IMG/VR virus record: IMGVR_UViG_3300025133_000384
Location: 1-33,198 of that record
Reading direction: 5' to 3' (one strand)
Source: a virus
DNA length: 33,198 nucleotides
Numbering within the stretch: position 1 is the first letter of the stretch; each line of letters opens with the position of its first letter. Under the pieces are notes generated by a model. That model searched no databases, was not told the origin of the DNA, and was given only the letters and a program-made list of their open reading frames with translations. Below, one piece after another: positions 7,236 through 20,018 of this stretch. Position numbers and translations under genes: made by a program.

Positions 7236-7263
7236 TTTCGTATCTCCGTTTGTTTTTAGTTGT

Positions 7264-7319
7264 GAGGTGTTTTACACCTCGCGTTGATTCAAACTAGTCC
7301 ACACAACCGCTTGTGTCAA
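7264..7319 (-). promoter_or_regulatory. Leftward promoter with two palindromic operators
   Basis: On the minus strand TTGACA (7314-7319) and TAGTTT (7291-7296) are spaced by 17 bp. An ACACAA/TTGTGT inverted repeat (7301-7316) covers the -35 edge and spacer. A perfect 17-bp palindrome, GAGGTGT/ACACCTC with a 3-bp centre (7264-7280), sits at about +4 to +20. The second palindrome belongs to the AGGTGTA motif family found before other leftward units. The promoter would drive the four genes 7235-6018 under repressor control. Confidence 0.65.
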
Positions 7320-7355
7320 CCCCTCATAGTCGATTTCCTTTAAAAAGGCGTTTTA

Positions 7356-7371
7356 GCCTGAAAAAACAGGC
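7356..7371. terminator. Possible weak terminator hairpin
   Basis: GCCTG and CAGGC pair around a six-base loop, downstream of the gene ending at 7436. Leftward, the stem is followed by a CTTTTTAAAGG stretch after eight bases. A GGCGTTTT direct repeat (7347-7354 and 7389-7396) flanks it. The stem is short, so the call is tentative. Confidence 0.3.
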
Positions 7372-7435
7372 CCAGGATTGCGTTCTAAGGCGTTTTGATT
7401 GATGGCCGGGTATGTTGACATGGGGTAAATTGAGT

Positions 7436-7723
7436 TTAAATTGCCACTCTAGTGAAGCCGCTAGTGTAATGCTCAAATACCGCAGCCCGGTCATCGAGGT
7501 GCTGAATCATCTCACCATACTCATTGAAGCAGCATTCGTATTCATTGATTTGCGCCATGCCCGTCTTCGACAATTTCTTGGCGCACCGTTTTGCCTCGGC
7601 AAGGTTGTGAGTCCATAATCCTCCAAACTCTACATCAGGCTCAACGTACCCCACAACATGATACTGCTTCCCCACCCTTGCTACCGTCTCTCCCTCTACT
7701 GTGTCGCCTATCTCGTAACTCAT
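7436..7723 (-). CDS. Hypothetical protein (95 aa)
   Basis: I choose ATG 7721-7723 (MSYEIGDTVEGETVARVGKQYHVVGYVEPDVEFGG), since the longer in-frame ORF reaches back through the palindromic intergenic region. The product opens with a small beta-barrel-like pattern and continues with a helix (LAEAKRCAKKLSKTG) and a Cys pair. Family unknown. It stands alone between hairpin regions, so it is likely its own transcription unit. Confidence 0.5.
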   Translation of the reverse strand: MSYEIGDTVEGETVARVGKQYHVVGYVEPDVEFGGLWTHNLAEAKRCAKKLSKTGMAQINEYECCFNEYGEMIQHLDDRAAVFEHYTSGFTRVAI

Positions 7724-7778
7724 GCCAATAGTATCGCACAAAGCGTGCCAAACTATAAATGCCTGTTTTTGCGGGGTG

Positions 7779-7796
7779 CATGACTTTAGAGTCATG
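7779..7796. promoter_or_regulatory. CATGACT/AGTCATG inverted repeat
   Basis: A perfect 7-bp inverted repeat with a TTAG centre lies upstream of the gene starting at 7723. There is no T-tract on the side needed for leftward termination, so a protein-binding operator is at least as likely as an RNA hairpin. Confidence 0.4.
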
Positions 7797-7819
7797 TAAA
7801 AAAATCAATCTAGGTTTAA

Positions 7820-7845
7820 ATTTTATCAATAAAGATTGATAAAAT
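7820..7845. terminator. AT-rich 10-bp inverted repeat after the terminase-side operon
   Basis: ATTTTATCAA (7820-7829) and TTGATAAAAT (7836-7845) are perfect arms around TAAAGA. The repeat begins at the stop codon of the gene ending at 7845 and is followed leftward by TTTAAACC. It may act as a weak terminator or as a binding site. The low GC content makes termination uncertain. Confidence 0.4.
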
Positions 7846-8087
7846 CAGCCACCCGTCTTCCGGGCAATAGCCATTTCGCGTAACGCAAGGAAGTGGTCAC
7901 GCACTTCACGCACGGCGGCTGCCTTCCCACACATGTAGGCCCGTTGATTCGCGTCAAGGGTAGCGTCCAGTGCGGTATCAGTCTCCACCTCAACGAAGTC
8001 ATTCATGCCCTTCAGCATTTCCTCAAACAATTCATTCTTACCCTCCCACTGGTAGACCGTGTAATTTATTTCACTTAATTCCGACAT
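7845..8087 (-). CDS. Hypothetical protein (80 aa)
   Basis: This acidic N-terminal, helical C-terminal protein (MSELSEINYTVYQWEGKNE, then CGKAAAVREVRDHFLALREMAIARKTGG) overlaps the end of the HTH gene by 17 bases. The AYMCGKAAAVREVRDH part resembles helical segments of small packaging-region proteins of phages, but I recognise no named family. It is the last gene of the terminase operon and is followed by an AT-rich inverted repeat. Confidence 0.6.
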   Translation of the reverse strand: MSELSEINYTVYQWEGKNELFEEMLKGMNDFVEVETDTALDATLDANQRAYMCGKAAAVREVRDHFLALREMAIARKTGG

Positions 8088-8247
8088 GCTTTAAAAGGTC
8101 TTCCTTATGATATTTATGGCGGCCACCTAAAGTCGTATAAACTTTTATCAGGCCAGCCTTGCGTAGCTTCTGAATGTAACGCTCCTCTAATCCCGTTAAC
8201 TCAGTCGCCTGCTTCAGGCTTAACAGTAATGGCAGTTCTTCGTTCAT
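8071..8247 (-). CDS. Small helix-turn-helix DNA-binding protein (58 aa)
   Basis: An ORF of 58 codons starts at ATG 8245-8247, overlapping the large-terminase stop as TAATG, and ends at TGA 8071-8073. The product (LSLKQATELTGLEERYIQKLRKAGLIKVYTTLGGRHKYHKEDLLKH) has the helix-turn-helix plus wing of the AlpA/MerR/excisionase-like family: two helices, a GGRHKY wing and a final helix. It could be an excisionase, a transcriptional regulator or a packaging-site binding factor. Confidence 0.7.
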   Translation of the reverse strand: MNEELPLLLSLKQATELTGLEERYIQKLRKAGLIKVYTTLGGRHKYHKEDLLKHVGIK

Positions 8248-9905
8248 TAGTAAGCCCCTCCACCCACAGCCGCATACGTCTTCTCATCAACATGCGCCAA
8301 GTCGCTCGTGATCAGGTAACGTAAAACGTCAACCGGGTCTTTGAATTTATTCTTGTCAGCCCCGGCACTGCTCACGTTCTGCAAGCAGTCAATCAGGTTA
8401 CCGCAGTCACGGCTCACATACAGTTTCGGTTCATTGATCATCGTCACAGGTTCCTCAGTGTTATAGCTCATCTGCTCATTGATCTGCTGCACACCCTGAT
8501 CCACGTTCAAACCCGGTGCAGGCGTGAACCACATTTCATTCGGTTCATCCGCCAACATGTCAATCAGCGTAACGCCTCCCTCCTTGGTCGCCTGCGCCGA
8601 TCCTCCCGCTCTTGGATCGATAAAGCGTTCCTCAATCTTTTCGCCATCCTCAAGCTCAAGAAATAATTCCTTATACTCGTTTATTCCGCGACCCTCTGGC
8701 TTCTGCGCTGGCCCCATCTGCCCCTCAACCTTGTCGCCCGGTATAGCCCATTCGCCATACGTCTCTTTGTCAGGCCATTCCTGGTAAACGTACATCTTCC
8801 CATCAGGCGTGCAACGCATCCACAGTGCCGACCAGTTACGACTCCCGGCAGGATCAGTACACATGTAGTTCGTACCCTCCAGAGGCACGTCCTCCGGGTT
8901 AACGATATGGTCAGGGCCGAACTTCGGAAACCAGTTGCCCGTTGCCTTCTCGCACCATCCATAAGCCCTGAGACGAACGGTAACCGTATTCTCCCCGGCC
9001 AAGCTGCGTTCCATCTCTTCAGGAGACTGAAACGGATTCATCTCTGAATGAAACCAGATGACCGCACTATTCTCCTTCACACACTTGGCCTTGTAAGGCA
9101 TGTGACCGGGCTTACAGCCAACCGGGGGAGGCGATTTTTGAAGTAAGGAGGCTTCACGCACCTCGGCAACCTTGCACCCAGCCACAAAATCATTTACCAC
9201 AGGTGTCCACCCGGTAATCGGCGTAGCCGTGATTAACAGCTTACCCGTCCCACGACTACCCCGCCTCGTAATCAATCGATACTCAGCAGTCTCCACCCAG
9301 TGCCACGGCACCAACTCATCAAACACAACCATGTCACCCTCAAACCCCTCCAGAATATCTGGCTGTTGAGCGTAGTTCAGAAACCAACACTGACTTCCGT
9401 TCGGCAATATAAACGTCCCATCAGTAAAACCATTCTTTTGACTGTAATTGATGTTCGTCGTCTTCGTCTTCTTGATGCCCTTAAACTCCAACGGGATATG
9501 CGAAAACACACTCGGCTGCTGGTCACGAATACTACTCGCAGCAGTCATGCTAAACATAGCCACCCTGCTGCCCTCCCGCTCCATCATCATCTGCATGGCG
9601 TAATGCGCCGAGAAATAGCTCTTACCACTCCGGTTGCCCCCAGAGACTAACAACCTATCATTCTCATCCAAAAGCGCAGCAGCGTCCTTCCAGTGTTCAG
9701 GAATGACACAGTGCCGATACGGGTCAACGTAGCTCGGCCTCAGTTTCTTGTAGAAGTAATCATGCAGCCACTCCTGCACCCTCTCAACACCCTGCTCCTC
9801 AACCTGCTCCGCCAAATACTCCTTCGTCAACCCGACAAACCGCGAAGGCGGCCACGCTAAACATGTCTCCAGCAGTTCCTCCGGGGTTTTAGGTTGCAGG
9901 TTCAT
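8247..9905 (-). CDS. terL: Terminase large subunit (552 aa)
   Basis: This is the packaging motor ATPase and headful or site-specific nuclease. Walker A is GGNRSGKS (89-96) and Walker B is DMVVFDE (191-197) with the catalytic Glu. A coupling motif ITATP lies near 225-229. The RNase H-like nuclease domain shows CTDPAG (Asp351), FIDPRAGG (Asp430) and DPVDVLRY (Asp526) as the likely metal-binding acids. The length is typical. The start ATG overlaps the preceding stop as ATGA. The terminase cluster lies upstream of the head module in the direction of transcription. Confidence 0.92.
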   Translation of the reverse strand: MNLQPKTPEELLETCLAWPPSRFVGLTKEYLAEQVEEQGVERVQEWLHDYFYKKLRPSYVDPYRHCVIPEHWKDAAALLDENDRLLVSGGNRSGKSYFSAHYAMQMMMEREGSRVAMFSMTAASSIRDQQPSVFSHIPLEFKGIKKTKTTNINYSQKNGFTDGTFILPNGSQCWFLNYAQQPDILEGFEGDMVVFDELVPWHWVETAEYRLITRRGSRGTGKLLITATPITGWTPVVNDFVAGCKVAEVREASLLQKSPPPVGCKPGHMPYKAKCVKENSAVIWFHSEMNPFQSPEEMERSLAGENTVTVRLRAYGWCEKATGNWFPKFGPDHIVNPEDVPLEGTNYMCTDPAGSRNWSALWMRCTPDGKMYVYQEWPDKETYGEWAIPGDKVEGQMGPAQKPEGRGINEYKELFLELEDGEKIEERFIDPRAGGSAQATKEGGVTLIDMLADEPNEMWFTPAPGLNVDQGVQQINEQMSYNTEEPVTMINEPKLYVSRDCGNLIDCLQNVSSAGADKNKFKDPVDVLRYLITSDLAHVDEKTYAAVGGGAY

Positions 9906-10087
9906 TGATCCACCAAGTCCAGGTTCTTTGAGTGCGACAAATCATCAATCGGCAGATGAACATACGTTTCTGCTGGGCAATTCGTGCAACTCAGGTTCGT
10001 CACTATCCCTTCACCTTCAAAACCATAATCCTCGTAATCATGGTCACCACCCCAAATCAATTCCGAATTGCAATGCCAACAGTTCAT
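9902..10087 (-). CDS. Small zinc-ribbon protein (61 aa)
   Basis: I start at ATG 10085-10087 (MNCWHCNSELIWGG), which overlaps the previous stop as ATGA. The product has two Cys pairs, CWHC at residues 3-6 and CTNC at residues 34-37, spaced as a treble-clef/zinc-ribbon, with an acidic loop (DHDYEDYGFEGEG) between. Proteins of this kind are common beside phage replication and terminase genes, and the specific role is unknown. The stop overlaps the large-terminase start. Confidence 0.7.
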   Translation of the reverse strand: MNCWHCNSELIWGGDHDYEDYGFEGEGIVTNLSCTNCPAETYVHLPIDDLSHSKNLDLVDQ

Positions 10088-10254
10088 TGCCAATCAAAAT
10101 TGCCGGGAAATGATCGGCAACCCGTTTTGTCGATCAAAAGAAAAGCCAACAGGGTGTTCACTATCCCGGTGGAGCTACGCAGCCCAGAAGGCCATGAAGT
10201 TAAACCGGAAGTCCACGACTCTCTCGCGGCTCTATTCCCTGTCAGCGTTTTCAT
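10084..10254 (-). CDS. Predicted small protein linked by ATGA overlaps (56 aa)
   Basis: A 56-codon ORF fills the gap between two better-supported genes. Its ATG (10252-10254) overlaps the stop of the 70-aa gene and its TGA (10084-10086) overlaps the next ATG. Both joins have the 4-base pattern used across this genome, which is the main reason to accept it. The product (MKTLTGNRAARESWTSG, later TGIVNTLLAFLLIDKTGC) has one moderately hydrophobic stretch. No family is recognised. An antisense ORF also crosses here, but it lacks comparable signals. Confidence 0.5.
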   Translation of the reverse strand: MKTLTGNRAARESWTSGLTSWPSGLRSSTGIVNTLLAFLLIDKTGCRSFPGNFDWQ

Positions 10255-10463
10255 CGTATCGGCTGTTTACGTTTTTGTCGAACTTGTGGCCCTTCCCGCT
10301 CCGCCAGCCAAGCACTAGCTCGACGATTAAAAGCCTCACACTCCTTCACCGTAGGTATCTTACCCGGAAACCCCTCACCAGACTCGCTCACACGCAGATC
10401 AGAGTAAGTCGTGTTTCTTGGCCCCTGCCCTGCCGGGACTGGCTCGTGTCGCCCCAACTTCAT
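10251..10463 (-). CDS. Hypothetical protein (70 aa)
   Basis: The start ATG (10461-10463, MKLGRHEPVPAGQ) overlaps the upstream stop as ATGA. The product is polar, with a short helical section (TVKECEAFNRRASAWLAEREG) and a basic tail (QKRKQPIR). No family is recognised. It is within the small-to-large terminase interval. Confidence 0.55.
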   Translation of the reverse strand: MKLGRHEPVPAGQGPRNTTYSDLRVSESGEGFPGKIPTVKECEAFNRRASAWLAEREGPQVRQKRKQPIR

Positions 10464-10870
10464 CCATCGCCCTCCGGTCGCCTCGGCCGCCTGTAACCCT
10501 TCCACCCATTACCCTCCTTCCATACCGTCACCCGTAAACCCGGCTTGTACAGCCGGTTATCACCCACGTTAACAATCTGCGGCTCACTCTCACCATCAAT
10601 CAAGCATCGCACCAAGCGCGTGTTCAATATTCGCGCCTTCAATACCTCCGCACCCCTCGTAACAGGCCCATCAGGCAGTAACTCGCTCACATCGAATTTC
10701 AGGTCTGCCGCTAACCTCCGCAAACCACACTCAGTCCATACCATCGACCGACCAAACATCAGCCAATCCACGTTACCCTCGTACTGGCCGCTCTGGCGGT
10801 GCCGCCTCAGTTCCTCACGCGATAAACCTGTTGATGCCGCGATTGCCGCTTCTTTCGTCATTGCCGTCAT
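10460..10870 (-). CDS. HTH-like hypothetical protein between the terminase genes (136 aa)
   Basis: The N-terminus (MTAMTKEAAIAASTGLSREELRRHRQ) looks like a helix-turn-helix. It continues with EGNVDWLMFGRSMVWTECGLRRLAADL, the layout of a marker-like DNA-binding module with a wing, then a small beta-rich C-terminal part (RVTVWKEGNGWKGYRRPRRP). The start could also be the internal ATG at 10861; neither has a clear Shine-Dalgarno. Position suggests a role in packaging or regulation. Confidence 0.55.
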   Translation of the reverse strand: MTAMTKEAAIAASTGLSREELRRHRQSGQYEGNVDWLMFGRSMVWTECGLRRLAADLKFDVSELLPDGPVTRGAEVLKARILNTRLVRCLIDGESEPQIVNVGDNRLYKPGLRVTVWKEGNGWKGYRRPRRPEGDG

Positions 10871-10886
10871 TGCGCTATTGGTAAAA

Positions 10887-10991
10887 TTAAATTTCCCCCC
10901 TTATCCGTCGCAAACCGCCGCCGGGGAAATCGAGGCACCCCCCCGCCCCCTTCTGTGGGGCATCTTGTCCGTAATTTGTACGGTTTTTCAT
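10887..10991 (-). CDS. Possible 34-aa ORF after the small terminase gene
   Basis: The only ORF in the 120-base gap starts at ATG 10989-10991 with GGAG five bases upstream and ends at TAA 10887-10889. The product is Gly/Arg-rich and has no recognisable motif. The good ribosome binding site favours it, but the G-run-rich sequence is not typical of the neighbours. If it is false, the gap holds no other feature I can see. Confidence 0.3.
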   Translation of the reverse strand: MKNRTNYGQDAPQKGAGGCLDFPGGGLRRIRGEI

Positions 10992-10992
10992 T

Positions 10993-11526
10993 TCACTCCT
11001 GTTTTTCTGGGGGATTTACGTCAACACACACAGACTTTTCGTCTGTTTGTCCAGATTTTAGGCCGCCAAGTAGCTCACCGAGGTCGTTTTTGTCCAAGTG
11101 AAGGTGGATGTTTTCAGATTTGGTCGAACTCTGCCCAGTCTCCTCCCGATAGTGCTGGGAAACGGTTCCGTAGGTGAACGCATATTGATTAGGAGACATG
11201 CGACCAGATTCAACAGCTTCAACCATCTTATCCGACAGCACCTCCCGCAAATTCTCGGACTTACGCGCCATCAGGTCTTTGTGTGACGGGATGATTTCAG
11301 CGTGCCGTGCTTTAATCTCGTGTATCGTCGTTGTGGCGACTCCGAAGCGGTCAGACACCTTCACGACAGGCACGCCTTCTCGTAAGAGCAGCACGACCGT
11401 CCTGTACGTCTCGTATGGCATCCTGCTACCTGATCCACGGTCAGGCTGCACGACCTGAATGGCTTGACCTTCGTTATCGACGACAGCTAGGTCAGCGGCA
11501 GGGCCGAGAGACACCTCCTCGCTCAT
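10993..11526 (-). CDS. Probable terminase small subunit (177 aa)
   Basis: I start at ATG 11524-11526 (MSEEVSLGPAADL), which overlaps the upstream stop as ATGA. A longer in-frame reading has no such signal. Residues about 50-75 (REGVPVVKVSDRFGVATTTIHEIKARH) form a helix-turn-helix, followed by helices (ENLREVLSDKMVEAVESGRMSPNQYAFTYG) and an acidic tail. This matches the DNA-recognition plus oligomerisation plan of small terminases. Its place upstream of the large subunit in transcription order supports the call. A general HTH regulator remains possible. Confidence 0.65.
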   Translation of the reverse strand: MSEEVSLGPAADLAVVDNEGQAIQVVQPDRGSGSRMPYETYRTVVLLLREGVPVVKVSDRFGVATTTIHEIKARHAEIIPSHKDLMARKSENLREVLSDKMVEAVESGRMSPNQYAFTYGTVSQHYREETGQSSTKSENIHLHLDKNDLGELLGGLKSGQTDEKSVCVDVNPPEKQE

Positions 11527-11801
11527 AATTCGTCTGCCTCCCACGGCCAGATGCCTTGGCCTGTTTGTTCTTGGTTTTCGGCCTCGCACTCTTCGCAGAT
11601 TGAGTCTTCCTGTAGTAGCAGCAGCATTGAACCTCTGAAGGCTTCTAATGCGCCTTCAAGTTGTGGCCCCGGTTCAGCGGTTACGCGCACTGTTTCCTTG
11701 TAAACTGCGTGACATCCGCACCCTTCACATTCGGATGCTGTAATGAATGTGTGCAACTGGCCAGATTTTGGCCGTACAGCGTTTCTATTTCCCCTTAGCA
11801 T
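11523..11801 (-). CDS. Cys-rich zinc-binding hypothetical protein (92 aa)
   Basis: I start at ATG 11799-11801 because AAGGAGAAGGAGG lies just upstream. The longer in-frame ORF runs back through the operator and hairpin region. The product has CEGCGCH near residue 25 and CEECEAE near residue 70, a plausible zinc-ribbon, separated by a helix (LEGALEAFRGSMLLLLQE). Function unknown. It opens the terminase operon and sits directly upstream of the small subunit. Confidence 0.65.
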   Translation of the reverse strand: MLRGNRNAVRPKSGQLHTFITASECEGCGCHAVYKETVRVTAEPGPQLEGALEAFRGSMLLLLQEDSICEECEAENQEQTGQGIWPWEADEL

Positions 11802-11825
11802 GATTTGTCCTCCTTCTCCTTTGCG

Positions 11826-11871
11826 GCTCTTAGGAGCCATCCTCGCAACATTAACGAGGTATTCTACACCT
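11826..11871 (-). promoter_or_regulatory. AGGTGTA-family operator/promoter element and leader hairpin
   Basis: On the minus strand AGGTGTAGAATACCT (11857-11871) is followed by a GGCTC/GAGCC hairpin (11826-11837) and then the strong Shine-Dalgarno of the terminase operon. The embedded TAGAAT resembles a -10 box, but no good -35 is seen at 17-18 bp. A CCAAGGT/ACCTTGG inverted repeat lies just upstream (11877-11895), inside the end of the previous gene. Confidence 0.5.
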
Positions 11872-11874
11872 ACC

Positions 11875-12222
11875 TCACCAAGGTAATTGACCTTGGGGCT
11901 TTTGGTCGAGTTTGTTTTGCTCACTAGTTTGACGACTTGTGTGCAATCGGTCATCGAGTTTTTTTTGGATTCGTTGTCTGCCGCTGTAGTGTGCCTTGAG
12001 GCTGCCTGAGAGTTTTTCGATTGCTACGGTATCGGCGGCTGTACGCAACTCGTTCGTAATGCTTGTGATGTAGTCGTTCGTTTTGATGAGTTTAGCTTTT
12101 AGCCCGGAGCATGTATCACAGTGAATGATGCTATGGAGCCTGTTAAGACCGTATGGGTCAGTGTGAGGCAGTTCGACCTGTAGGGCGGTATGGCAGTGGG
12201 GGCATTGATGGTCTTTGATCAT
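11875..12222 (-). CDS. Zinc-ribbon protein (115 aa)
   Basis: The start ATG (12220-12222) overlaps the stop of the initiator gene as ATGA. The product has CPHC near residue 7 and CDTC near residue 37, a zinc-ribbon, then a helical region (KAKLIKTNDYITSITNELRTAADTVAIEKLSGSLKAHY) that may be a coiled coil. The C-terminus is polar. It is coupled to the replication initiator, so a role as a replication accessory or DNA-binding factor is plausible, but no family can be named. Confidence 0.65.
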   Translation of the reverse strand: MIKDHQCPHCHTALQVELPHTDPYGLNRLHSIIHCDTCSGLKAKLIKTNDYITSITNELRTAADTVAIEKLSGSLKAHYSGRQRIQKKLDDRLHTSRQTSEQNKLDQKPQGQLPW

Positions 12223-12971
12223 AGATTGTCGATTTCTGCCATGATGCGTTTGTGCGCTTCGTCGGCTTGGGCTGCGATTCGTTCTGCGTCCCGGTCGAAG
12301 CCGGTTTTGGCTGCTGCCTTGATGCCCCACTCTGTAGCGGGTTCGAGGTAGCACTGCTGATTGAACCAAGTGGCTGGGTGTTTGATGTATTTTGCGGAGT
12401 CGGGTTCTGCGGCAATTCGTTGTTCGCAGGCCGTGGCCCATAGTTTCGTTTTTTCAACCAAGGCTTGGTAAGACAAGCCGTGTTCCTTTTTGGCTGATTC
12501 GAGTTTGAGTGCCTTGCGAATTGCTTTCAGCGCATTCGGCCTGCCGACCTTCCGAGGGTAGGCATCGTAGATAGCCTCAACTTCACTTTCTGGTATATGA
12601 CTGGTTCTTAACTGGTTCTTTACTGGTTTGGGTATCTGTGTGGTACTACCGGAGTAACTGTGTGGTACTACCGTAGTATCTGTGTGATACCCCCTATCAC
12701 TGTGATACCCCTCTGGATCGGCTACTGGGAGGCGGTATAAGTTGGTGCGATTGGCTCTGGATTCGACCTCCAGCAGCTTCTTATCTTGAAGCTCACGGAT
12801 AGCCCGAACGGCGGTCATTCGGCTGATGCCGCAGCGGGTTGCGAGGGTGTCCATTGAGGGCCAAGCGGAGTCATTATCCCTCCCGGCGTAATCGGCAATA
12901 GCAAGCAGCACGAGCTTGGTTAATCCGTTAACTGGCATATCCCATGCCCATGCTGATGCTTTAAGACTCAT
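12219..12971 (-). CDS. Replication initiator-like protein (250 aa)
   Basis: Residues about 15-85 form a winged helix: LTKLVLLAIADYAGRDND-W-PSMDTLATRCGISRMTAVRAIRELQDKKLLEV. The middle (about 90-125) is encoded by a run of iterons. The C-terminal part has DAYPRKVGRPNALKAIRKAL and HPATWFNQQCYLEP, a pairing typical of phage lambda-O/DnaT-like replication proteins. Like lambda O, it appears to bind an origin within its own gene. The start overlaps the previous stop as ATGA. No helicase loader is visible beside it. Confidence 0.75.
   Translation of the reverse strand: MSLKASAWAWDMPVNGLTKLVLLAIADYAGRDNDSAWPSMDTLATRCGISRMTAVRAIRELQDKKLLEVESRANRTNLYRLPVADPEGYHSDRGYHTDTTVVPHSYSGSTTQIPKPVKNQLRTSHIPESEVEAIYDAYPRKVGRPNALKAIRKALKLESAKKEHGLSYQALVEKTKLWATACEQRIAAEPDSAKYIKHPATWFNQQCYLEPATEWGIKAAAKTGFDRDAERIAAQADEAHKRIMAEIDNL
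12598..12711. other. Predicted replication origin: two iteron arrays inside the initiator gene
   Basis: Two arrays lie side by side. At 12598-12630 an 11-bp unit with the core ACTGGTT is repeated three times. At 12631-12711 four copies of a 18-22 bp unit follow, with core CTGTGTGGTACTACC in the first two and CTGTGTGATACCCC and CTGTGATACCCC in the last two. Regular spacing near two DNA turns and the place inside an O-like gene match the lambda-type origin layout. Confidence 0.7.
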
Positions 12972-13228
12972 TCTTCTGAGTAGGTTCCGTGATACGGATT
13001 CGGCTCATAATCCTCTGGAGATGGTTCAGGGTGAATCACCTCTAGTTCGGATGAACCTTCCCACCGTTGCATGATGCGATCCATCAGGCCGGTCTGCTTA
13101 ACGCGCTTCCACCAGTCATCAGGATACTCCTGATTACGGACTGCCTTGATTGCGTCACACGCCTTGCGCCAATCTTGAGGCGACTGACAGGCTTCGAGTG
13201 TTTTTAGTTCTACAGTTGTTATGTTCAT
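12968..13228 (-). CDS. Hypothetical protein (86 aa)
   Basis: The product has a helical N-terminal part (TVELKTLEACQSPQDWRKACDAIKAVRNQ) followed by YPDDWWKRVKQTGLMDRIMQRW and an acidic, Pro-rich tail. The motif with a double Trp after YPDD is seen in uncharacterised small phage proteins near replication genes. Both its start (13228) and its stop (12968) are 4-base overlaps with neighbours. It probably belongs to the replication operon, role unknown. Confidence 0.65.
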   Translation of the reverse strand: MNITTVELKTLEACQSPQDWRKACDAIKAVRNQEYPDDWWKRVKQTGLMDRIMQRWEGSSELEVIHPEPSPEDYEPNPYHGTYSEE

Positions 13229-13951: not shown

Positions 13952-14102
13952 TTTTGAGCGAAGGCGGGTTGAGCCACTTCTTATCGTTGATTCGCTGGTA
14001 GTCACTTAGAGACACATACGTCCCCTTCTTGGAATGGAAGTGACCCTTCCGTTTTGGTGTACCCCAGCACATTTTAAATTTACCTGAATTTTTCCTCTTC
14101 AC
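13920..14102 (-). CDS. Hypothetical protein (60 aa)
   Basis: The product (MKRKNSGKFKMCWGTPKRKGHFHSKKGTYVSLSDYQRIND) is basic with His and Cys residues in the first half. A GTG start at 14102 overlaps the upstream stop as GTGA. An internal ATG (MCWGTPKRKGHF) is an alternative. No family is recognised. It is followed without a gap by the 27-aa membrane ORF in another frame. Confidence 0.5.
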   Translation of the reverse strand: MKRKNSGKFKMCWGTPKRKGHFHSKKGTYVSLSDYQRINDKKWLNPPSLKNETQGLQPDN

Positions 14103-14476
14103 GATTTAGCAATCTCCTTCCACCTCTCCATCTCCTTGCGGAGTTGCTTCTTGCTCATTCCATCATCCTCTGGCTTCTCGTGATCGCTGACCCGGCCCAG
14201 TGTTTGGATAATGTGGAAGCAGGCAGTGCGTGCATCCATCTCCTCATCCAACCCCTTGAGTGCGAGCTTGCACACCTCATCGATTTGGTCGCGGAGTGTG
14301 ATTAGGTAGACAACTTGATCAACAGCCTCGTTGATTGCTTCACGCTCAAGTGGCTTCTCCCACAGGTGTCCTCCGTGTTCCTGAATCCCTTGCAGGTACT
14401 TTGTGTTTACGAGTTCGTCGAACTCCGTCTGGATGTGACTGATGTGTTCGTAGTCGGCTAGTGTTGGTACTCCCAT
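14099..14476 (-). CDS. Phage protein of possible MazG/nucleotide-pyrophosphatase type (125 aa)
   Basis: The protein is all-helical with DYEHISHIQTEFDELVNTKYLQGIQEHGGHLWE and REAINEAVDQVVYLITLRDQI. These acidic helices are arranged like the metal-binding helices of MazG-like or dUTPase-type all-alpha nucleotide pyrophosphohydrolases, but I cannot show the full ExxE/ExxD signature. It has a strong Shine-Dalgarno (AAAGGAGGAAAG) before ATG 14474-14476. The C-terminus is a charged helix. A general phage hypothetical is the fallback. Confidence 0.6.
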   Translation of the reverse strand: MGVPTLADYEHISHIQTEFDELVNTKYLQGIQEHGGHLWEKPLEREAINEAVDQVVYLITLRDQIDEVCKLALKGLDEEMDARTACFHIIQTLGRVSDHEKPEDDGMSKKQLRKEMERWKEIAKS

Positions 14477-14561
14477 TGTTCTTTCCTCCTTTGAATATTA
14501 GGTCGTAGTTGTTTCTGAATTTGTCTGAGAAATTATTTCTCGGCACACTTCCTTTGCTCAT
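14346..14561 (-). CDS. Small overlapping ORF after the DnaA-like gene (up to 71 aa)
   Basis: ATG 14559-14561 overlaps the stop of the DnaA-domain gene as ATGA and opens MSKGSVPRNNFSDKFRNNYDLIFKGGKN. This form (short basic start, then a KFxxNYDxIF motif and a Lys-rich end) recurs in tiny phage proteins, which normally stop there. Here the frame runs on for about 40 codons in a different frame over the next gene. Either the extension is tolerated or the ORF lost its stop. Confidence 0.45.
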   Translation of the reverse strand: MSKGSVPRNNFSDKFRNNYDLIFKGGKNNGSTNTSRLRTHQSHPDGVRRTRKHKVPARDSGTRRTPVGEAT

Positions 14562-14890
14562 ATCTGGTAATCGGAATCGATTGGCTCCTTGACGACTAAC
14601 CATCTGGCAACCTTCCACTTTTCAAGCGAACGTGGGTCTGAGAGGACTCGCCTTTCGACCGCCGATTTAGCGTGCATGACCGTGCCGTGGCACCGTTTAA
14701 ATAAACGGCCAGTTCGACTCAACGCCCCCTTGTTACTGGAAAGCGATTTCCATGTAATCACCATCGCAACCTGACGCGCCTCGGCAATCGGCTCAAAGCG
14801 TGAGCGGCCAAGTATCTCTTCGGGCGTGACCCGGTAAACTTCAGCTACTCCCCGGACAATCCCCTCAAATTGATGTTTAAAATAATTCAT
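14558..14890 (-). CDS. Stand-alone DnaA domain IV-like DNA-binding protein (110 aa)
   Basis: The sequence from VAEVYRVTPEEILGRSRFEPIAEARQVAMV (residues 15-43) to CHGTVMHAKSAVE (67-79) matches the C-terminal DNA-binding domain of DnaA: an HTH plus the HGTVMHA signature that reads the DnaA box. There is no AAA+ ATPase part, so this is a free DnaA domain IV. Phages with such genes may use it to mark or block host-type origins. Start and stop are ATGA overlaps with the exonuclease and the next ORF. Confidence 0.78.
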   Translation of the reverse strand: MNYFKHQFEGIVRGVAEVYRVTPEEILGRSRFEPIAEARQVAMVITWKSLSSNKGALSRTGRLFKRCHGTVMHAKSAVERRVLSDPRSLEKWKVARWLVVKEPIDSDYQI

Positions 14891-15672
14891 AGTTTTGGTT
14901 TGTAGTTTTTTTCGTACTGCCAGAGGCGCAGTGCTGCCTCGAATGCTTCCATCGCTTCACTCACCTCTTCAGGTGTCCACAGCTTGATAATCGGTTCCAT
15001 TGGCTCAGTCGTATTGATTGCAACACTGACCACCGGCACCTTGGTCATCAGGCAACTCTGGTAGAACGCCAACTGCATGACCCATTTGGAATAATAGTTT
15101 GGTTTGTACACCGGCTTCTTGGCTTTACTCAGCTTCATCTTCTGAGTCTTCCAATCGACCAACACTGGCTGATCACCGACAAGCTCGGCTGCCTTGCCCT
15201 TGAAGTAGACCATCGCATCAGCCTTACCGGCTACACCGAGGCTGCGGTTAACCAGTACCCTTTCACTCCACTCATGTGCCTTGATATTTCCTTGGCTCCA
15301 CTCGTGAAACTTTTGCAGGATAGGGCAGGACTCATCCCAGAGCCTGCCGCCGATCATTCTCTCAATGCCATCATGGACAAGCGTCCCAAGCCTCGCCGCT
15401 TCATTGCGGAGAGACTCAGAACGCTCGACTAATCGTCTACCAAAAACGTCACCTGACTCGGCTGCCCCGCGCTGCAATTCCACGGCAGCAACCGCCATCT
15501 GATTGAGCTTCCATCGCTCTAAGCCATCAGATCGGACAATCGACAGGATTGAAGTAGGTGAGGGTAAGAGTTGTTCCTTGCGTGCATCACGCAGGTTAGC
15601 ATCATACCTTGGCTCACCATCGGCTGTATACCAATGGCCGCCACCGTCTGGTTTAACGAATAGAGATGCCAT
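14887..15672 (-). CDS. RecB/Cas4-like PD-(D/E)XK exonuclease (261 aa)
   Basis: I start at ATG 15670-15672 (MASLFVKPDGGG). An upstream in-frame TTG is less likely. Motifs are RLGTLVH (His100), SERV (Glu138), GKAD (Asp152) and VLVDWKT (Asp173, Lys175), the standard order of the PDDEXK_1/RecB-family nuclease. The Gln-rich motif QLAFYQS follows. In phages such enzymes serve in recombination or replication beside an ssDNA-binding protein, as found here. The start follows the stop of the OB-like gene by three bases. Confidence 0.8.
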   Translation of the reverse strand: MASLFVKPDGGGHWYTADGEPRYDANLRDARKEQLLPSPTSILSIVRSDGLERWKLNQMAVAAVELQRGAAESGDVFGRRLVERSESLRNEAARLGTLVHDGIERMIGGRLWDESCPILQKFHEWSQGNIKAHEWSERVLVNRSLGVAGKADAMVYFKGKAAELVGDQPVLVDWKTQKMKLSKAKKPVYKPNYYSKWVMQLAFYQSCLMTKVPVVSVAINTTEPMEPIIKLWTPEEVSEAMEAFEAALRLWQYEKNYKPKL

Positions 15673-15674
15673 GA

Positions 15675-16142
15675 TTACCAACCTGGGTCAGCAGTTACTC
15701 TCTCGTGCGAATCAGGTACTTTAACGTCCTGACCTTTTGCGGGGGGCATTATTGAACTTATCCTAATTGATACCCCGGACCCATCTTGCTTCTGTTTCTC
15801 GATCACGTTCACACTGGCTTGTGCGCCTACCAGTTGCTCGGTGTTGAAGTTACTTTTCTCTTCATTCGACAGGTCTTGGCCGCGCCACTCTATAAGTGCC
15901 TCCCTGAACTTGCCCATCGGATGCAAGGTAGCGTTGAACCAAGCTCCGAGGTAAATAGGATCACCATCCTTCGTAACTTGATCGCCAATGCAAAAGACGA
16001 TCTTAATCTCATTGGTCGTTCGTGTCTTACCCTCGTAGGTGCTTGTTTTTGGGCCAAGCTCAATAACATCAACACAGACTGCCGGGTGTATTCCTACCGT
16101 GGGCTTCTCCCACTCTTCTTGCTTCGCTTCACTCAATATCAT
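15675..16142 (-). CDS. Probable OB-fold ssDNA-binding/recombination accessory protein (155 aa)
   Basis: The sequence has a PTVGIHPAVCVDVIELG strand region, a central GAWFNATLHPMGKFREALIEWRGQDLSNEEKSNFN block and VGAQASVNVIEKQKQDGSGVSIRISSIMPP, followed by an acidic-tailed end. This architecture resembles the DUF669-like/single-strand-binding phage proteins encoded next to RecB-type exonucleases. I infer an OB fold. It overlaps the small upstream ORF by 14 bases. Confidence 0.6.
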   Translation of the reverse strand: MILSEAKQEEWEKPTVGIHPAVCVDVIELGPKTSTYEGKTRTTNEIKIVFCIGDQVTKDGDPIYLGAWFNATLHPMGKFREALIEWRGQDLSNEEKSNFNTEQLVGAQASVNVIEKQKQDGSGVSIRISSIMPPAKGQDVKVPDSHERVTADPGW

Positions 16143-16281
16143 TTTTTTCCTTCTGTTCGGTTGTTTCGGTTTGTTCGTTTCGGGACTGAGTGTCAGCTAA
16201 CGCCTCCAGCCAGTAGCCAAATTCTTTATTGTCTTGGGTTTCGTTCCGCATGTTCTGCGGGTAATTAATTTGCATTCTCAT
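16129..16281 (-). CDS. Small polar protein, first gene of the replication operon (50 aa)
   Basis: ATG 16279-16281 lies five bases after AAAGGAG and opens a 50-codon frame ending at TGA 16129-16131. The product (MRMQINYPQNMRNETQDNKEFGYWLEALADTQ, then a Glu/Thr-rich tail) has no recognisable domain. Its tail overlaps the start of the next gene. It is the first gene after the operator/promoter at 16303-16338. Confidence 0.6.
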   Translation of the reverse strand: MRMQINYPQNMRNETQDNKEFGYWLEALADTQSRNEQTETTEQKEKNDIE

Positions 16282-16302
16282 AAGCTCCTTTGTTTATAGT
16301 GC

Positions 16303-16338
16303 AGGTATTCTACACCTCCTGTAGGACAAACGCTGTCC
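16303..16338 (-). promoter_or_regulatory. Operator/promoter before the replication operon
   Basis: Minus strand: AGGTGTAGAATACCT (16303-16317) sits 22 bases before the first start codon. A GGACA/TGTCC inverted repeat (16324-16338) lies upstream. The 15-mer is identical to the one before the terminase operon, and the TGTCC pair also occurs beside the integrase start. The TAGAAT within it could act as a -10, giving a 5' UTR of about 20 bases. Confidence 0.5.
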
Positions 16339-16348
16339 CACCAAATAA

Positions 16349-16726
16349 CTATTCTGCTGGAGGCAAATCGCCTCGTAAAAACTTAGCAAACTCATCGGCT
16401 GGCATCGTGACCAGCCACGGGCTGTGGTTCTTTTTATGCGCCACAATCGGCACCTTACCTGTTCCTTCACAATCACGCTTGGCTTGATCGATTGCGTCAT
16501 GGATGTTCAGGCGTTCCACTGCCTTCACCTCCCAGTGGATGTAATTCAGTGACGGGCAAACGACATCGGGGAAGTCCTGACCAAACTGATCACGGCCAGC
16601 ATTCTGGCAGCCGCGCTTTGCATCAAACATTGGGGTGCCGTCCTTGTTGAACCCAATGTCTTTGAGGTACAGGCACCAAGCCCTCTCGGCTCTGGCACCT
16701 TTCGCTCTGGAATTAATGCGGCTCAT
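16349..16726 (-). CDS. Holliday-junction-resolvase-like PD-(D/E)XK nuclease (125 aa)
   Basis: The N-terminus SRAKGARAERAWCLYLKDIGF is followed by RGCQNAGRDQFGQDFPDVVCPSLNYIHWEVKAVERLN. Likely catalytic residues are Glu14, Asp54 and Glu66-Val-Lys68. This is the layout of Hjc/VRR-type nucleases and phage PD-(D/E)XK resolvases. A C-terminal helical region follows. The ATG overlaps the excisionase-like stop as ATGA. It may resolve replication/recombination intermediates before packaging. Confidence 0.72.
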   Translation of the reverse strand: MSRINSRAKGARAERAWCLYLKDIGFNKDGTPMFDAKRGCQNAGRDQFGQDFPDVVCPSLNYIHWEVKAVERLNIHDAIDQAKRDCEGTGKVPIVAHKKNHSPWLVTMPADEFAKFLRGDLPPAE

Positions 16727-16923
16727 CGGCGGGGTGTGGGGGTGCCGATGAACCGCTGGAGGGAAGCGAGTGTTATGCGTACCCCTTGCGAACCTATTCG
16801 GATCGGCTCAAGGTCGCCTCGCTTCAATAAAGTGTCGATGTGCGGGATACTGCAATCCATCAACTCAGCCGCATGTTTGCGGGAGACGAGTTGCATTGCT
16901 TCTAATTGTTTATCTATTTCCAT
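16723..16923 (-). CDS. Excisionase-like MerR-type HTH protein (66 aa)
   Basis: The sequence LVSRKHAAELMDCSIPHIDTLLKRGDLEPIRIGSQGVRITLASLQRFI is the minimal winged-HTH of the AlpA/HTH_17/excisionase family: helix, turn, recognition helix, Arg-Ile wing, final helix. It sits a few genes from the integrase, and an Xis role is likely. It could also regulate transcription. The upstream gene ends ten bases inside its start, and its stop overlaps the nuclease start as ATGA. Confidence 0.75.
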   Translation of the reverse strand: MEIDKQLEAMQLVSRKHAAELMDCSIPHIDTLLKRGDLEPIRIGSQGVRITLASLQRFIGTPTPRR

Positions 16924-17093
16924 GTTTTTAATGCGTATGGGGTCACGTCGAAGAGTAGCCCGTTAGTTAATTGCAGCCTGACGTTTCGCTTTTCTGGCTT
17001 GCCAAAGGCATCGCCCACAATGCGTCCCTTAATTGCCGGGTTATCCTTGTGCTTCACCCGGTCGCCCACTTTGAATGTTACTTCTTCAACCAT
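16914..17093 (-). CDS. Small SH3/KOW-like protein (59 aa)
   Basis: ATG 17091-17093 lies inside the last codons of the lysin gene, and TAG 16914-16916 lies inside the first codons of the next. The product (VTFKVGDRVKHKDNPAIKGRIVGDAFGKPEKRNVRLQLTNGLLFDV) has the strand-turn pattern of a small beta-barrel with a VGDRVKHK opening typical of KOW/SH3-like domains. The role is unknown. Confidence 0.6.
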   Translation of the reverse strand: MVEEVTFKVGDRVKHKDNPAIKGRIVGDAFGKPEKRNVRLQLTNGLLFDVTPYALKTWK

Positions 17094-17767
17094 GCCTCAA
17101 TCTTTCGGATCGCACGTTGAGTTGTTGCCGGGGATTTGCTTACATCGAATTTAACCTTGCGTGCATTACCAACACCCCAGTTGTAGCCCATGTATATCTG
17201 GCCTGCCGTGGGGTATTTTACACCTCGGTCACGAATGTATTTCTCGATCCACTGTAAATAGCTGACAGCGTACAGGCGACTCCACTTAATGTCTATAGAC
17301 CCCTCCTTGTAGGATGTGGTGGGAAGTCCGTCACGTTGACGGATTTGCGTGGTGTGCTGCCATGTAGGCTGCCAGAATTGAAATGCGCCTGAAGCCTTAC
17401 CGCCGTCTCCAATCGCCGTGGCTCGCCCGTTCGACTCCACTTGGCATACCGCTTCGATTAGCTTTGCGTTGACTCGGCTTGGTGCCGCTGGCTTCGCAGA
17501 AAATCCGCTCAACGTACTCAGCAGGAGTAAGGCCAGCAGACTTAGCCTCTTTGCGAAGTGCAAGGAGGATTCGTTTATCAAGCCATGCTGCGAGCAATGC
17601 TTTATGTTCTGCGCGTTGGTCTGGCACGGGTCTTCTGTGTCACACTCCATCGGCATATCCGATATAATCTTATCCACCTCATCCATCAGGTAGCGTTTTG
17701 ATTCGGAGTTTAAATGCCCAAATTTCCGGGCAGACGCATTTGAAATGATTAAACTGACACTCTCCAT
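17078..17767 (-). CDS. Endolysin-type transglycosylase/lysozyme-like protein (229 aa or shorter)
   Basis: Residues about 100-170 (AKLIEAVCQVESNGRATAIGDGGKASGAFQFWQPTWQHT) have the lytic-transglycosylase/goose-lysozyme-like pattern with catalytic Glu111 and the GAFQF motif. It is followed by the YLQWIEKYI helix and QIYMGYNWGVGNARKV. Residues 73-91 form a signal-anchor-like segment (KRLSLLALLLLSTLSGFSA), so export without a holin is plausible. The first 68 codons are of unknown role, and a TTG at 17563 just before the signal segment is an alternative start. The ATG at 17767 has good AGGAG spacing. Confidence 0.72.
   Translation of the reverse strand: MESVSLIISNASARKFGHLNSESKRYLMDEVDKIISDMPMECDTEDPCQTNAQNIKHCSQHGLINESSLHFAKRLSLLALLLLSTLSGFSAKPAAPSRVNAKLIEAVCQVESNGRATAIGDGGKASGAFQFWQPTWQHTTQIRQRDGLPTTSYKEGSIDIKWSRLYAVSYLQWIEKYIRDRGVKYPTAGQIYMGYNWGVGNARKVKFDVSKSPATTQRAIRKIEAWLKK
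17397..17627 (-). CDS. Overlapping-frame ORF with ribbon-helix-helix-like segment (76 aa)
   Basis: A GTG at 17625-17627 opens a second frame inside the lysin gene. Residues about 14-42 (AAWLDKRILLALRKEAKSAGLTPAEYVERI) look like the strand plus helices of a CopG/RHH domain, and codon first positions in this frame are G-rich, as in the phage's known genes. It could be a separate nested gene, or the true downstream part of a gene starting at 17767 and reached by a frameshift. Confidence 0.4.
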   Translation of the reverse strand: MPDQRAEHKALLAAWLDKRILLALRKEAKSAGLTPAEYVERIFCEASGTKPSQRKANRSGMPSGVERASHGDWRRR

Positions 17768-17795
17768 AACTAGCTCCTTTTCTCCTATTAGTTTC

Positions 17796-17840
17796 AGGCG
17801 GACTCCGCCCGGTGAGCTACTTATAAGGCGGACTCCGCCC
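17796..17840. promoter_or_regulatory. Twin GGCGGACTCCGCC palindromic operators over the lysin promoter
   Basis: Two identical 15-bp copies (17796-17810 and 17826-17840), each holding the 13-bp palindrome GGCGGACTCCGCC, have centres exactly 30 bp apart, about three DNA turns. The upstream copy falls between a TTTACT (-35-like) and TATAAG (-10-like) on the minus strand with an 18-bp spacer, and the other lies near +13. This is a strong layout for a cooperative repressor. Confidence 0.6.
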
Positions 17841-17881
17841 AGAAGTAAAGTACAATAGTAGACTATATTGTTAACAGGTTA

Positions 17882-18067
17882 TTATTTAGAAGGCTTCTTT
17901 TTCTGACTGCCAATATCGTCAGACTCCCCCATCTCATCCTTGAGCATGTTCCTGATTAAGTCCGAGACACTCACGCCCCGCCTCTTGGCCTCCTTGGCGA
18001 GGCGTTTGCGGAAGTCGCCGGTAACCCAGAATCCGACTCTCTTCATTGATGGATCGCGAAATGGCAT
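17882..18067 (-). CDS. Ribbon-helix-helix (Arc/CopG-like) regulator (61 aa)
   Basis: I start at ATG 18065-18067; a later ATG (MKRVGFW) at 18046 is possible. The sequence VGFWVTGDFRKRLAKEAKRRGVSVSDLIRNMLKDEM has the RHH form: one strand, two helices and a basic helix 1. A Lys-rich tail follows. It sits between two sets of palindromes (17796-17840 and 18087-18103), so it is likely an autoregulated repressor. It is the best candidate for the lysogeny regulator here. Confidence 0.72.
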   Translation of the reverse strand: MPFRDPSMKRVGFWVTGDFRKRLAKEAKRRGVSVSDLIRNMLKDEMGESDDIGSQKKKPSK

Positions 18068-18086
18068 TGCGTTAAAACCAATACAC

Positions 18087-18103
18087 ACACTGTAGCACAG
18101 TGT
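18087..18103. promoter_or_regulatory. Perfect ACACTGT/ACAGTGT palindrome before the RHH gene
   Basis: Two 7-bp arms flank an AGC centre, 19 bases upstream of the RHH start codon. The position over the likely promoter region fits autoregulation by the RHH protein. No other copy was found near the twin GGCGG palindromes, so two different DNA-binding proteins could be involved. Confidence 0.55.
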
Positions 18104-18144
18104 AATACAAATACTACTTATCAACACAACAAAAGCCTATAAGT

Positions 18145-18288
18145 CTATTTACTTATTGGGTTGTCTACCGGATCAAGGTCTGGCAATTGGTCACCAATGG
18201 CGGCCTCCAGATCGGTATCATACACCTCGACAACTTTATCGGCTGTCATCACGTCAAGCTCAACTTCAACGTAAACATTCTTTTCCAT
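18145..18288 (-). CDS. Small acidic protein (47 aa)
   Basis: ATG 18286-18288 opens MEKNVYVEVELDVMTADKVVEVYDTDLEAAIGDQLPDLDPVDNPISK, ending at TAG 18145-18147. The product is strongly acidic with regularly spaced hydrophobic residues. There is no Shine-Dalgarno before it, only a hairpin. The location (directly upstream of an RHH regulator) suggests a partner or decoy for a DNA-binding protein, which is inference only. One copy of the AGGTGTA motif lies inside the gene at 18213-18227. Confidence 0.45.
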   Translation of the reverse strand: MEKNVYVEVELDVMTADKVVEVYDTDLEAAIGDQLPDLDPVDNPISK

Positions 18289-18291
18289 AAC

Positions 18292-18337
18292 AAAGAGGGG
18301 GTTTTCCTGTTGGGAAACAGAACATTACCCCCCCTTT
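18292..18337. promoter_or_regulatory. Long imperfect hairpin before the acidic mini-gene
   Basis: A 10-base arm (18292-18301) pairs with 18328-18337 (one mismatch), and TTTCC (18303-18307) pairs with GGAAA (18313-18317) inside it. The hairpin ends three bases upstream of the start codon at 18288, so it may block or shape translation. Its T-tract is short, so it is a weak terminator candidate. Confidence 0.4.
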
Positions 18338-18374
18338 ATCAGAAAACCAGAAAAAGTTATGACACAAGTTTTTC

Positions 18375-18409
18375 GCAACAAGATTTGTTGCGCTGATGAC
18401 AAGATCAGC
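18375..18409. terminator. Two adjacent hairpins after the integrase gene
   Basis: GCAACAA/TTGTTGC (18375-18391) and GCTGAT/ATCAGC (18392-18409) are two perfect inverted repeats end to end, starting just after the integrase stop. Neither is followed by a T-tract, so rho-dependent ending, RNA processing or a protein-binding role is possible. Confidence 0.4.
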
Positions 18410-19672
18410 TTACCCAACCGCCGCCTGTTTGTTAACAGGCTGCTCGGCGGTCAGGTTAATTTCGTACTCAGGCTGCTTAACAATATCAGCGTAATAACTC
18501 TCGGTAGTGGTAATAGATGCATGACCCAGTAAACGCTGCACCGCGAACAGGTCTTTAATCTGGTGACTTACTTCACTGCCAAACCACCTCCGCAACTCAT
18601 GCGTCTTTTTCTTTTCAGTCCACCCGATAGACAAGAACCACTTACACAGTCTTCTGCCAATCCCCTGCTTGCGATCATTACCACTGTATGCAGGGATGAT
18701 GAACTCAGAGTCATCACTGAGTAAAAGAATCTGATCATACACCGATTCGCTTAACGGCACCCGGCGAATTTTACGACCCTTCGGCACCCACGTCTCAGTG
18801 GGCTGAACGTAAAGCACCCGTTTCCCCTTGTAAAAGGTGATCCATTCCTTCCGAGCCTGTAAAGCCTCTGTCCTCCGCAAGCCACACCCCGCAGCCAACT
18901 GGAATAACAAGTAGGCCGAGGGGTCTGACTCTTTCAACGCAGGGAGGTTAGCTTTCAGTGTCTCCACCTGGCCATCGATCTTCTCGTACAGGAATTCAAC
19001 GGGAGTACACTTCTGGTGCGGTGCTTCAACGAATGTGCTTATGTCAGGCAGGCCGGGATAGAGTTTGTCCACGATGTTTCGCTTGGAAAATAAACTCTTC
19101 GCATCCCCTAGCAAACTGTTTGCACCACGAATACGACTCTCGCGTGCCTCACCCGCTTCCGGGTAACCTAAGAGCCTATTCTTCATAAACTTCTTAACCA
19201 GTTGACGGTCGAGGATTGTAGCAGGTAGCTTGTCAATCGCTGGCTCAACCCATTCCCCTGACTCAGCATCCTTAACCTGTTTCCGTTCAATCTGGAGGGC
19301 TGTACGAATCAGCGTGCGTAAACGATTGCTGGCCTCACGAGAAACGCGCTTGGTCTGAGTCGGCACATCCTGTTCGATAAATAATTGAATGCACTGACCA
19401 ATCGTGATGACACCCTTCTTGTTCTGACCGGCATGAACGAAGTCCCATTGTTCGCGGGAGGCTGCCCGGACTTTGTCCAGAGCAGTGGCTGCTGCTGTAC
19501 GTTCATCCGTGGTGCGGAGGTTGAGTTGGTGGTGCTTGCCGTTGGCAGCGAAGCGGGTGCGCCAGTTCTTACCGCGCAACTCGATCACTGCGGTGGTGCC
19601 GTCCTTCGCAGACACCTTGCGCTTGCTGTCAACCGGCTTGCCGTTGCGGCCTATGTATTTTTCGATCTTCAT
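18410..19672 (-). CDS. int: Tyrosine-family site-specific integrase (420 aa)
   Basis: The protein has an N-terminal arm/core-binding part (residues 1-200, with an SAM-like helical region) and a catalytic part. Catalytic residues are Arg266 (CGLRRTEAL), His358 and Arg361 (HELRR), His384 (LLGHAS) and Tyr393/394 (TESYYADIV). It integrates the phage at attB, here predicted to be the tRNA-His gene. It lies just downstream of the attP site. The ATG at 19670-19672 has AGGAG with correct spacing. No recombination-directionality factor is next to it, and the best Xis candidate is at 16723. Confidence 0.93.
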   Translation of the reverse strand: MKIEKYIGRNGKPVDSKRKVSAKDGTTAVIELRGKNWRTRFAANGKHHQLNLRTTDERTAAATALDKVRAASREQWDFVHAGQNKKGVITIGQCIQLFIEQDVPTQTKRVSREASNRLRTLIRTALQIERKQVKDAESGEWVEPAIDKLPATILDRQLVKKFMKNRLLGYPEAGEARESRIRGANSLLGDAKSLFSKRNIVDKLYPGLPDISTFVEAPHQKCTPVEFLYEKIDGQVETLKANLPALKESDPSAYLLFQLAAGCGLRRTEALQARKEWITFYKGKRVLYVQPTETWVPKGRKIRRVPLSESVYDQILLLSDDSEFIIPAYSGNDRKQGIGRRLCKWFLSIGWTEKKKTHELRRWFGSEVSHQIKDLFAVQRLLGHASITTTESYYADIVKQPEYEINLTAEQPVNKQAAVG

Positions 19673-19700
19673 TTTTAGTAGCTCCTGATTTTGTTTTTAG

Positions 19701-19731
19701 ATGTCCCGCAGGACATTGGTGTTTTACACCT
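19701..19731 (-). promoter_or_regulatory. Integrase promoter/operator (AGGTGTA family plus TGTCC palindrome)
   Basis: On the minus strand AGGTGTAAAACACCA (19717-19731) follows TTGGCA with an 18-bp gap to TAAAAC, a plausible promoter. Just downstream is ATGTCC/GGACAT (19701-19716), a 6-bp palindrome in the 5' UTR, followed by the Shine-Dalgarno AGGAG. Both elements are shared with the start of the replication operon at 16303-16338. Confidence 0.5.
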
Positions 19732-19757
19732 TAACCACCCTTACTGCCAAGCATTAA

Positions 19758-20016: not shown

Positions 20017-20018
20017 AA

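Follow-up and report, generated by a model that had tools for sequence, protein, structure and literature searches.

The 15-bp dyad that recurs along the window, i.e., the whole linear IMG/VR virus record IMGVR_UViG_3300025133_000384 (G000; 33,198 bp), is best read as a set of dispersed operators of one autoregulated immunity repressor, a small ribbon-helix-helix (RHH) protein encoded by the open reading frame (ORF) 17397-17627. We give this reading a probability of about two in three. Seen in the sequence are the repeated dyad, its conservation, its symmetric change, its positions and its linkage to the RHH gene. A preliminary description of the window had offered a palindromic operator of one phage repressor and a phage-wide regulon, and both proposals gain support from the symmetry of the element, its conservation in relatives, its promoter positions and the RHH-gene linkage.

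Four perfect copies are located on the minus strand at 7265, 11857, 16303 and 19717, ahead of four leftward units as previously described, and all of them map to gaps between called ORFs. Each is composed of two inverted half-sites AGGTGTW. A first-order Markov model lets 0.0002 exact consensus matches be expected on this strand, and in a consensus-free check the largest family of 15-mer dyads in the window comprises four members, compared to at most three in 60 Markov genomes. The two further copies noted in coding DNA, 17211 and 18213, are present with one and three mismatches, respectively. Copy 17211 may be a coding coincidence; the same codons hold a 14-bp dyad, AGGTGTTAACACCC, in L008, L014 and L016 (relatives are denoted by L and G numbers). 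Copy 18213 is probably not functional, and the ORF that holds it (18145-18288) is absent in L054. AGGTGTA occurs a seventh time at 1674, there without a dyad. The earlier statement that AGGTGTA never varies holds for the six copies inside the window, whereas relatives show AGGCGTA (L006, 7471), AGGTATT (L020, L021) and ACGTGTA (L038, L064). The common orientation of the copies was likewise described correctly, but it is weak evidence since the element is nearly symmetric, the copy at 7265 being a perfect palindrome.

Closer relatives (clade 1), with 67-78% identical DNA, retain the 16303 site as AGGTGTAAAATACCT in L008, L014 and L016 and as AGGTGTATGATACCT in L022. The 19717 site reads AGGTATTTAATACCT in L020 and AGGTATTCAATACCT in L021, immediately behind the same tRNA fragment and followed by different genes; in L054, whose integrase is 71% identical, the site has kept its sequence, with two additional genes following it. 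As L054 and L020 carry other small genes between site and integrase, the unit formerly named after the integrase is better described as the beginning of the leftward early operon adjoining attP, the phage attachment site. The 11857 site is one base shorter than in the window, i.e., 14 bp, in L014 (AGGTGTTAACACCT) and L008 (CGGTGTTAACACCT), and its ortholog in L064, at 3763, is ACGTGTAGAACACCT. The counterpart of 7265 in L006, at 7471, is AGGCGTAAAACACCT, ahead of a different gene. Since ACGTGT-like arms occupy five of the six half-sites across the three copies of L064, the half-sites of this genome read as having changed together. Judged from these comparisons, the TARAAT core is not the conserved part of the element; the arms are, while flanks, genes and centre change.

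The sister clade (clade 2; L040-L052, records G001-G005), with portal proteins 37-38% identical to that of the window, has the half-site RGGTGWN. The pattern RGGTG-N5-CACCY occurs at 9, 6, 6, 7 and 7 places in G001 to G005, respectively, and the reversed control pattern at none. Its centre is asymmetric, mostly ACYNA, and is found in both orientations among 29 sites (19 A..A, 7 T..T). On the sense strand the end pair of these sites is A.C in 10 cases and G.U in three. A transcript hairpin would not favour such A.C end pairs and both centre orientations, which two independently read DNA half-sites would allow. Sites abut the -35 element of TTGACA-16/17-GATAAT in all five records. In G001, G002, G004 and G005, sites also follow TTGACR-16-TAYKTT at a distance of about 7 nt, comparable to TTGACA-17-TAGTTT-11-site at window position 7265. 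Others occupy gene junctions without evident promoter or the gap upstream of the rightward gene adjoining the integrase. TTGACR is found within 45 bp of 12 of the 29 sites versus 13% of random positions, a guide only, given that the genomes are related. A single motif recurs along the genome of a phage, at promoters as well as between genes, with four intergenic copies in the window, six to nine in clade 2 and none of the control. The record G002 (L058/L066, 60.8 kb) exceeds the other phages of the clade in length and may represent a prophage flanked by host DNA.

An operator-like dyad is located 3-66 bp upstream of the RHH start codon in seven of the seven clade-2 genomes with a readable immunity region (G001-G004, L070, L073, L074), of which G004, L073 and L074 were examined for this linkage only once the other four had shown the rule. 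The copies nearest to the gene in G004 are imperfect; in G002, L073 and L074, GGGTGTCAAACACC lies 3 bp before the ATG. The clade-2 family member is the rightward gene beside the integrase (17486-17689 in G001) and encodes about 58-68 amino acids with the pattern K-[KR]-C-[LI]-x-[AC]-W ... T-x-T-[DE]-R. At E<1e-26, a hidden Markov model (HMM) of the family identifies a single protein in the window (17397-17627) and one each in G008 and G009; the HMM seed contained these proteins except that of G009. In single-sequence phmmer comparisons, the window protein matches its relatives in G008, G002 and G001 at 3.7e-19, 6e-4 and 0.011, respectively. The best match among profiles of solved structures is SvtR, an RHH viral repressor (2kel, E 0.035). 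The predicted model (mean pLDDT 64, core 71-85) has a helix-turn-helix pair, with helices at 18-31 and 35-47, and no strand in the monomer. Its Foldseek matches are mostly RHH proteins (VapB, AvtR, CopG, Arc), each of them individually weak (E>0.3). The sequence pattern of the alignment fits the RHH order, in which a strand at the N-terminus precedes two helices joined by a turn; an RHH fold is likely. The RHH protein intended in the preliminary description was a different one, RHH1 (17882-18127), found in the window lineage only; the conserved, operator-linked family is that of ORF 17397-17627.

In clade 1 this gene shares its DNA with another. The transglycosylase and RHH ORFs overlap in different frames in the window (minus strand) and in L020 (3653-4363 and 3799-4041). 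The overlap is observed in the window and two relatives with 67-78% identity, and the overlapping segment is missing in L054. Between the window and G008, the transglycosylase frame is identical at 16 of 47 positions over the RHH core versus 69 of 105 further on, and the whole RHH proteins are 46% identical; over this core the RHH frame therefore appears to be the better conserved one. Just upstream of this ORF pair a second, duplicated dyad, GGCGGAGTCCGCC, is found at 17797-17809 and 17827-17839. It was seen in the window and its near-identical contig only and is possibly a site of RHH1.

Table 1. Features of the window referred to in the text.
Feature	Position	Strand	Sequence	Remarks
Candidate repressor, RHH family	17397..17627	-		76 amino acids, GTG start; overlaps transglycosylase ORF 17078-17767 in another frame; family HMM, phmmer, alignment, Foldseek
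Putative operator copy 1	7265..7279	-	AGGTGTAAAACACCT	perfect dyad/palindrome; 11 nt downstream of TTGACA-17-TAGTTT; before moron-like cassette
Putative operator copy 2	11857..11871	-	AGGTGTAGAATACCT	before 11523-11801 / TerS-like / terminase unit
Putative operator copy 3	16303..16317	-	AGGTGTAGAATACCT	between RusA gene and replication unit
Putative operator copy 4	19717..19731	-	AGGTGTAAAACACCA	first element of early leftward operon beside attP
Possible extra copy	17211..17225	-	AGGTGTAAAATACCC	one mismatch; inside transglycosylase ORF
Weak copy	18213..18227	-	AGGTGTATGATACCG	three mismatches; in ORF 18145-18288, about 150 bp upstream of RHH1
RHH1, second RHH protein (Pfam RHH_1)	17882..18127	-		paralog, window lineage only
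Tyrosine integrase	18410..19672	-		PF00589
tRNA-His-like 3' half, apparent attP	19845-19894		CAGATTGTGATTCTG...ATCACCCCA	read by eye
Sigma-70-like promoter	7291..7319	-	TTGACA-17-TAGTTT	upstream of operator copy 1; from sequence
2369-aa ORF	20679-27788	-		weak endolysin-type PHROG match only

Several observations weigh against an RHH repressor acting on these sites. The RHH assignment leans on individually weak scores, namely the Foldseek and pLDDT values given above and the lack of any Pfam family at E<=0.1 for the family members scanned (window, L020, L056), and the clade-1 ORF overlaps the transglycosylase ORF and starts with GTG. G007 (L054/L062), an incomplete contig, retains three sites and has at the syntenic place a transglycosylase ORF without the RHH core. 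The window holds just four to five copies, few of which adjoin a clear promoter, the spacing of the clade-1 half-sites varies by 1 bp (14 versus 15), and the clade-2 counts are not independent since the genomes are related. A control result, by contrast, speaks for the proposed reading: further loci sharing the replication gene of G006 or the neck gene reveal no member of the RHH family, and those longer than 9 kb no dyad family of at least four, except for the GC-rich L121. The repressor of the ACGTGT lineage was not found: the query with the G006 replication gene gave phages without RHH protein or dyad.

From the dyad, its positions and the RHH linkage we infer the steps of binding, repression, lysogeny, silencing and roadblock as follows. 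A dimeric or tetrameric RHH protein would bind each dyad. In the lysogen, repressor bound to operators that overlap the -35 element or the start site (+1) would block initiation, which would silence the early operon, the replication and terminase units and the moron. By analogy with stoperators, sites between genes without evident promoter may act as a roadblock to elongating polymerase. The gene of the RHH repressor would itself be among the targets, such that the protein limits its own synthesis.

An operator of the same kind could be read by a different phage protein, which we consider unlikely, yet the least improbable of the alternatives. Candidates are the helix-turn-helix (HTH) protein HTH_17 (16723-16923), RHH1, a TerS-like HTH protein (10993-11526) or an unseen repressor. 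That G007 has sites but no RHH core at the locus speaks for such a binder, as do the conservation of HTH_17 in the window, L020 and L054 and the position of the TerS-like gene after a site in several genomes. None of the candidates, however, is operator-linked in all lineages in the way the RHH family is in clade 2. RHH1 was discarded because it is absent from the relatives. No homolog of HTH_17 was seen at the corresponding clade-2 gene. The recognition helix of the TerS-like protein does not track the half-site, being nearly the same in the window and G006 despite different half-sites and different between the window and G008 despite a shared one, and this protein was discarded as well. That the motif acts as RNA instead, i.e., as a hairpin with a 5-bp stem and a 5-nt loop in mRNA leaders (a boxB-like antitermination site, a leader stabiliser or a protein-binding hairpin), is improbable. 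The window copies do read AGGUG-UARAA-YACCU with G-U-compatible changes, all of them on the sense strand and 20-60 nt before start codons, and in L008 and L014 the loop is one base shorter with the stem kept. Against a transcript hairpin stand the end pairs and both centre orientations of the clade-2 sites, the position of some sites upstream of the -35 element and hence outside the transcript, and the lack of an Rfam match. A hairpin of the lambda boxB type in particular, for which transcript base pairing should be conserved, is rejected on the same end pairs.

Still less credible is a promoter element, be it an extended -10 for one sigma factor, the second option of the preliminary description, or a promoter hairpin read by a phage RNA polymerase as in N4 (vRNAP-like). 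TGTARAAT does resemble a -10, TTGGCA-18-TAAAAC at 19717 is kept in L054, and the phage encodes a 2369-aa protein. Nevertheless, orthologous sites have other bases in place of the TARAAT core and keep the arms, no -35 stands at the right spacing at 7265, 11857 and 16303, and separate TTGACA/-10 promoters adjoin several sites, among them the one upstream of 7265. The TGnTATAAT-like core with a conserved A at -11 that marks a sigma-70 extended -10 is not what orthologs and relatives show (AGGTATTTAATACCT, AGGTGTTAACACCT, RGGTG-ACYNA-CACCY). No RNA polymerase family matched the 2369-aa ORF, and with no such polymerase found and sites in both orientations the N4-like hairpin promoter is rejected. 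Chance, or shared ancestry of intergenic DNA without function, could draw on the small sample inside the window and on two copies being identical; it can nearly be dismissed in view of the chance expectation given above, the retention of sites in relatives with 67-78% identity in the surrounding DNA and their multiplication in the sister clade.

The working principle of dispersed operators under one repressor is already known from the L5 operators/stoperators, from SPBRE/MrpR of SPbeta and from RHH control of archaeal viruses. What is new here is the phage group itself, a site that is symmetric, a candidate repressor of the RHH type, half-sites that change in a coordinated way and the overlap of two reading frames. 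Arc and Mnt of P22 are small RHH repressors acting at one immunity locus. The RHH proteins F55 of SSV1, SvtR of SIRV1 and AvtR of AFV6 bind to several viral promoters including their own, and F55 maintains the carrier state (PMC5569661). The proposed repressor is similarly small and would resemble them in its probable fold and its predicted targets, SvtR being the best profile match of the window family; these viruses are archaeal or enterobacterial, though, and the F55 sites are tandem ATAGATAG repeats. In cluster A mycobacteriophages, one repressor (that of L5) acts on numerous short sites spread over the genome, within promoters as well as between genes, with a consensus that differs between subclusters (PMC6550527, PMC9283540). 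One repressor with short sites at promoters and in intergenic gaps along the genome is proposed here, too. The L5 sites, however, are 13 bp long, asymmetric, more than 20 in number and bound by a two-domain HTH monomer, in contrast to a 15-bp dyad with four to nine copies per record and a small RHH candidate. The cluster A stoperator proper, an asymmetric 13-bp site oriented with transcription, does not describe a 14/15-bp dyad with clade-2 centres in both orientations. General scans yielded no L5-like repressor among the window ORFs they covered, a dedicated search not having been made. In SPbeta, the master repressor MrpR (YopR) binds the 15-bp SPBRE in several promoter regions of one prophage (PMC10516654), an arrangement like the one proposed for the repeated element in the window. 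MrpR has a tyrosine-recombinase fold, and phage, host and site sequence are unrelated to those of the window as far as seen. Among annotated phage records, C75C1 (OQ984151) gives the best match to the large terminase, at 33% identity; its early module is unlike that of the window.

Only tentatively do we extend this to a general picture, in which temperate bacterial phages run a genome-wide, stoperator-like immunity with an Arc/CopG-type RHH protein and palindromic sites, in which repressor and all half-sites shift their specificity together between lineages, and in which one clade encodes the repressor inside the transglycosylase gene in another frame. If the operator reading holds, an uncultivated and largely marine phage group would gain a concrete lysogeny switch, comprising a repressor candidate, an operator sequence and a list of targets. 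At least three unrelated folds would then serve as repressors in dispersed-operator immunity, namely HTH for L5, a recombinase-like one for MrpR and RHH in the present group, and the site could serve to read immunity groups from metagenomes.

The main genes of the window are all leftward: portal-like (PF23899), head (phrog_1328), terminase, replication initiator, exonuclease, RusA, transglycosylase, RHH, integrase and the 2369-aa ORF. The phage group is uncultivated and mostly marine, and two distant portal relatives occur in metagenome-assembled genomes of Verrucomicrobiota and Lentisphaerota; these two loci, obtained by a host search with the portal alignment, show no clear dyad family. Site 19717 is located between the tRNA-His-like 3' fragment, at which ARAGORN calls no tRNA, and the integrase. 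In L054, with its different integrase, a tRNA-Phe-like piece (CTGAAAATCC) takes the place of this fragment and the operator is kept. Repeats of TTGGACAAATTTTGGACAAATT at about 19755-19777 and 19998-20020 flank the tRNA fragment, with ACGTACAA repeats there in L054; the TTGGACAAATTTTGGACAAATT repeats are likely integrase arm sites.

The sigma-70-like promoter upstream of copy 1 is unlisted by the promoter scan, whose -10 rule it fails. Together with the operator it forms one end of a moron-like cassette (5965-7320), which has a strong GC hairpin with T-runs (5965-5997) at the other end and is missing in L007. Upstream of a small ORF, TGGCACGCTTTGTGC at 7736-7750 (minus strand) comes close to a sigma-54 (-24/-12) promoter. 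The L054 version of the 2369-aa ORF contains HEAFHA and repeated RFMPD peptides, which may be processing sites.

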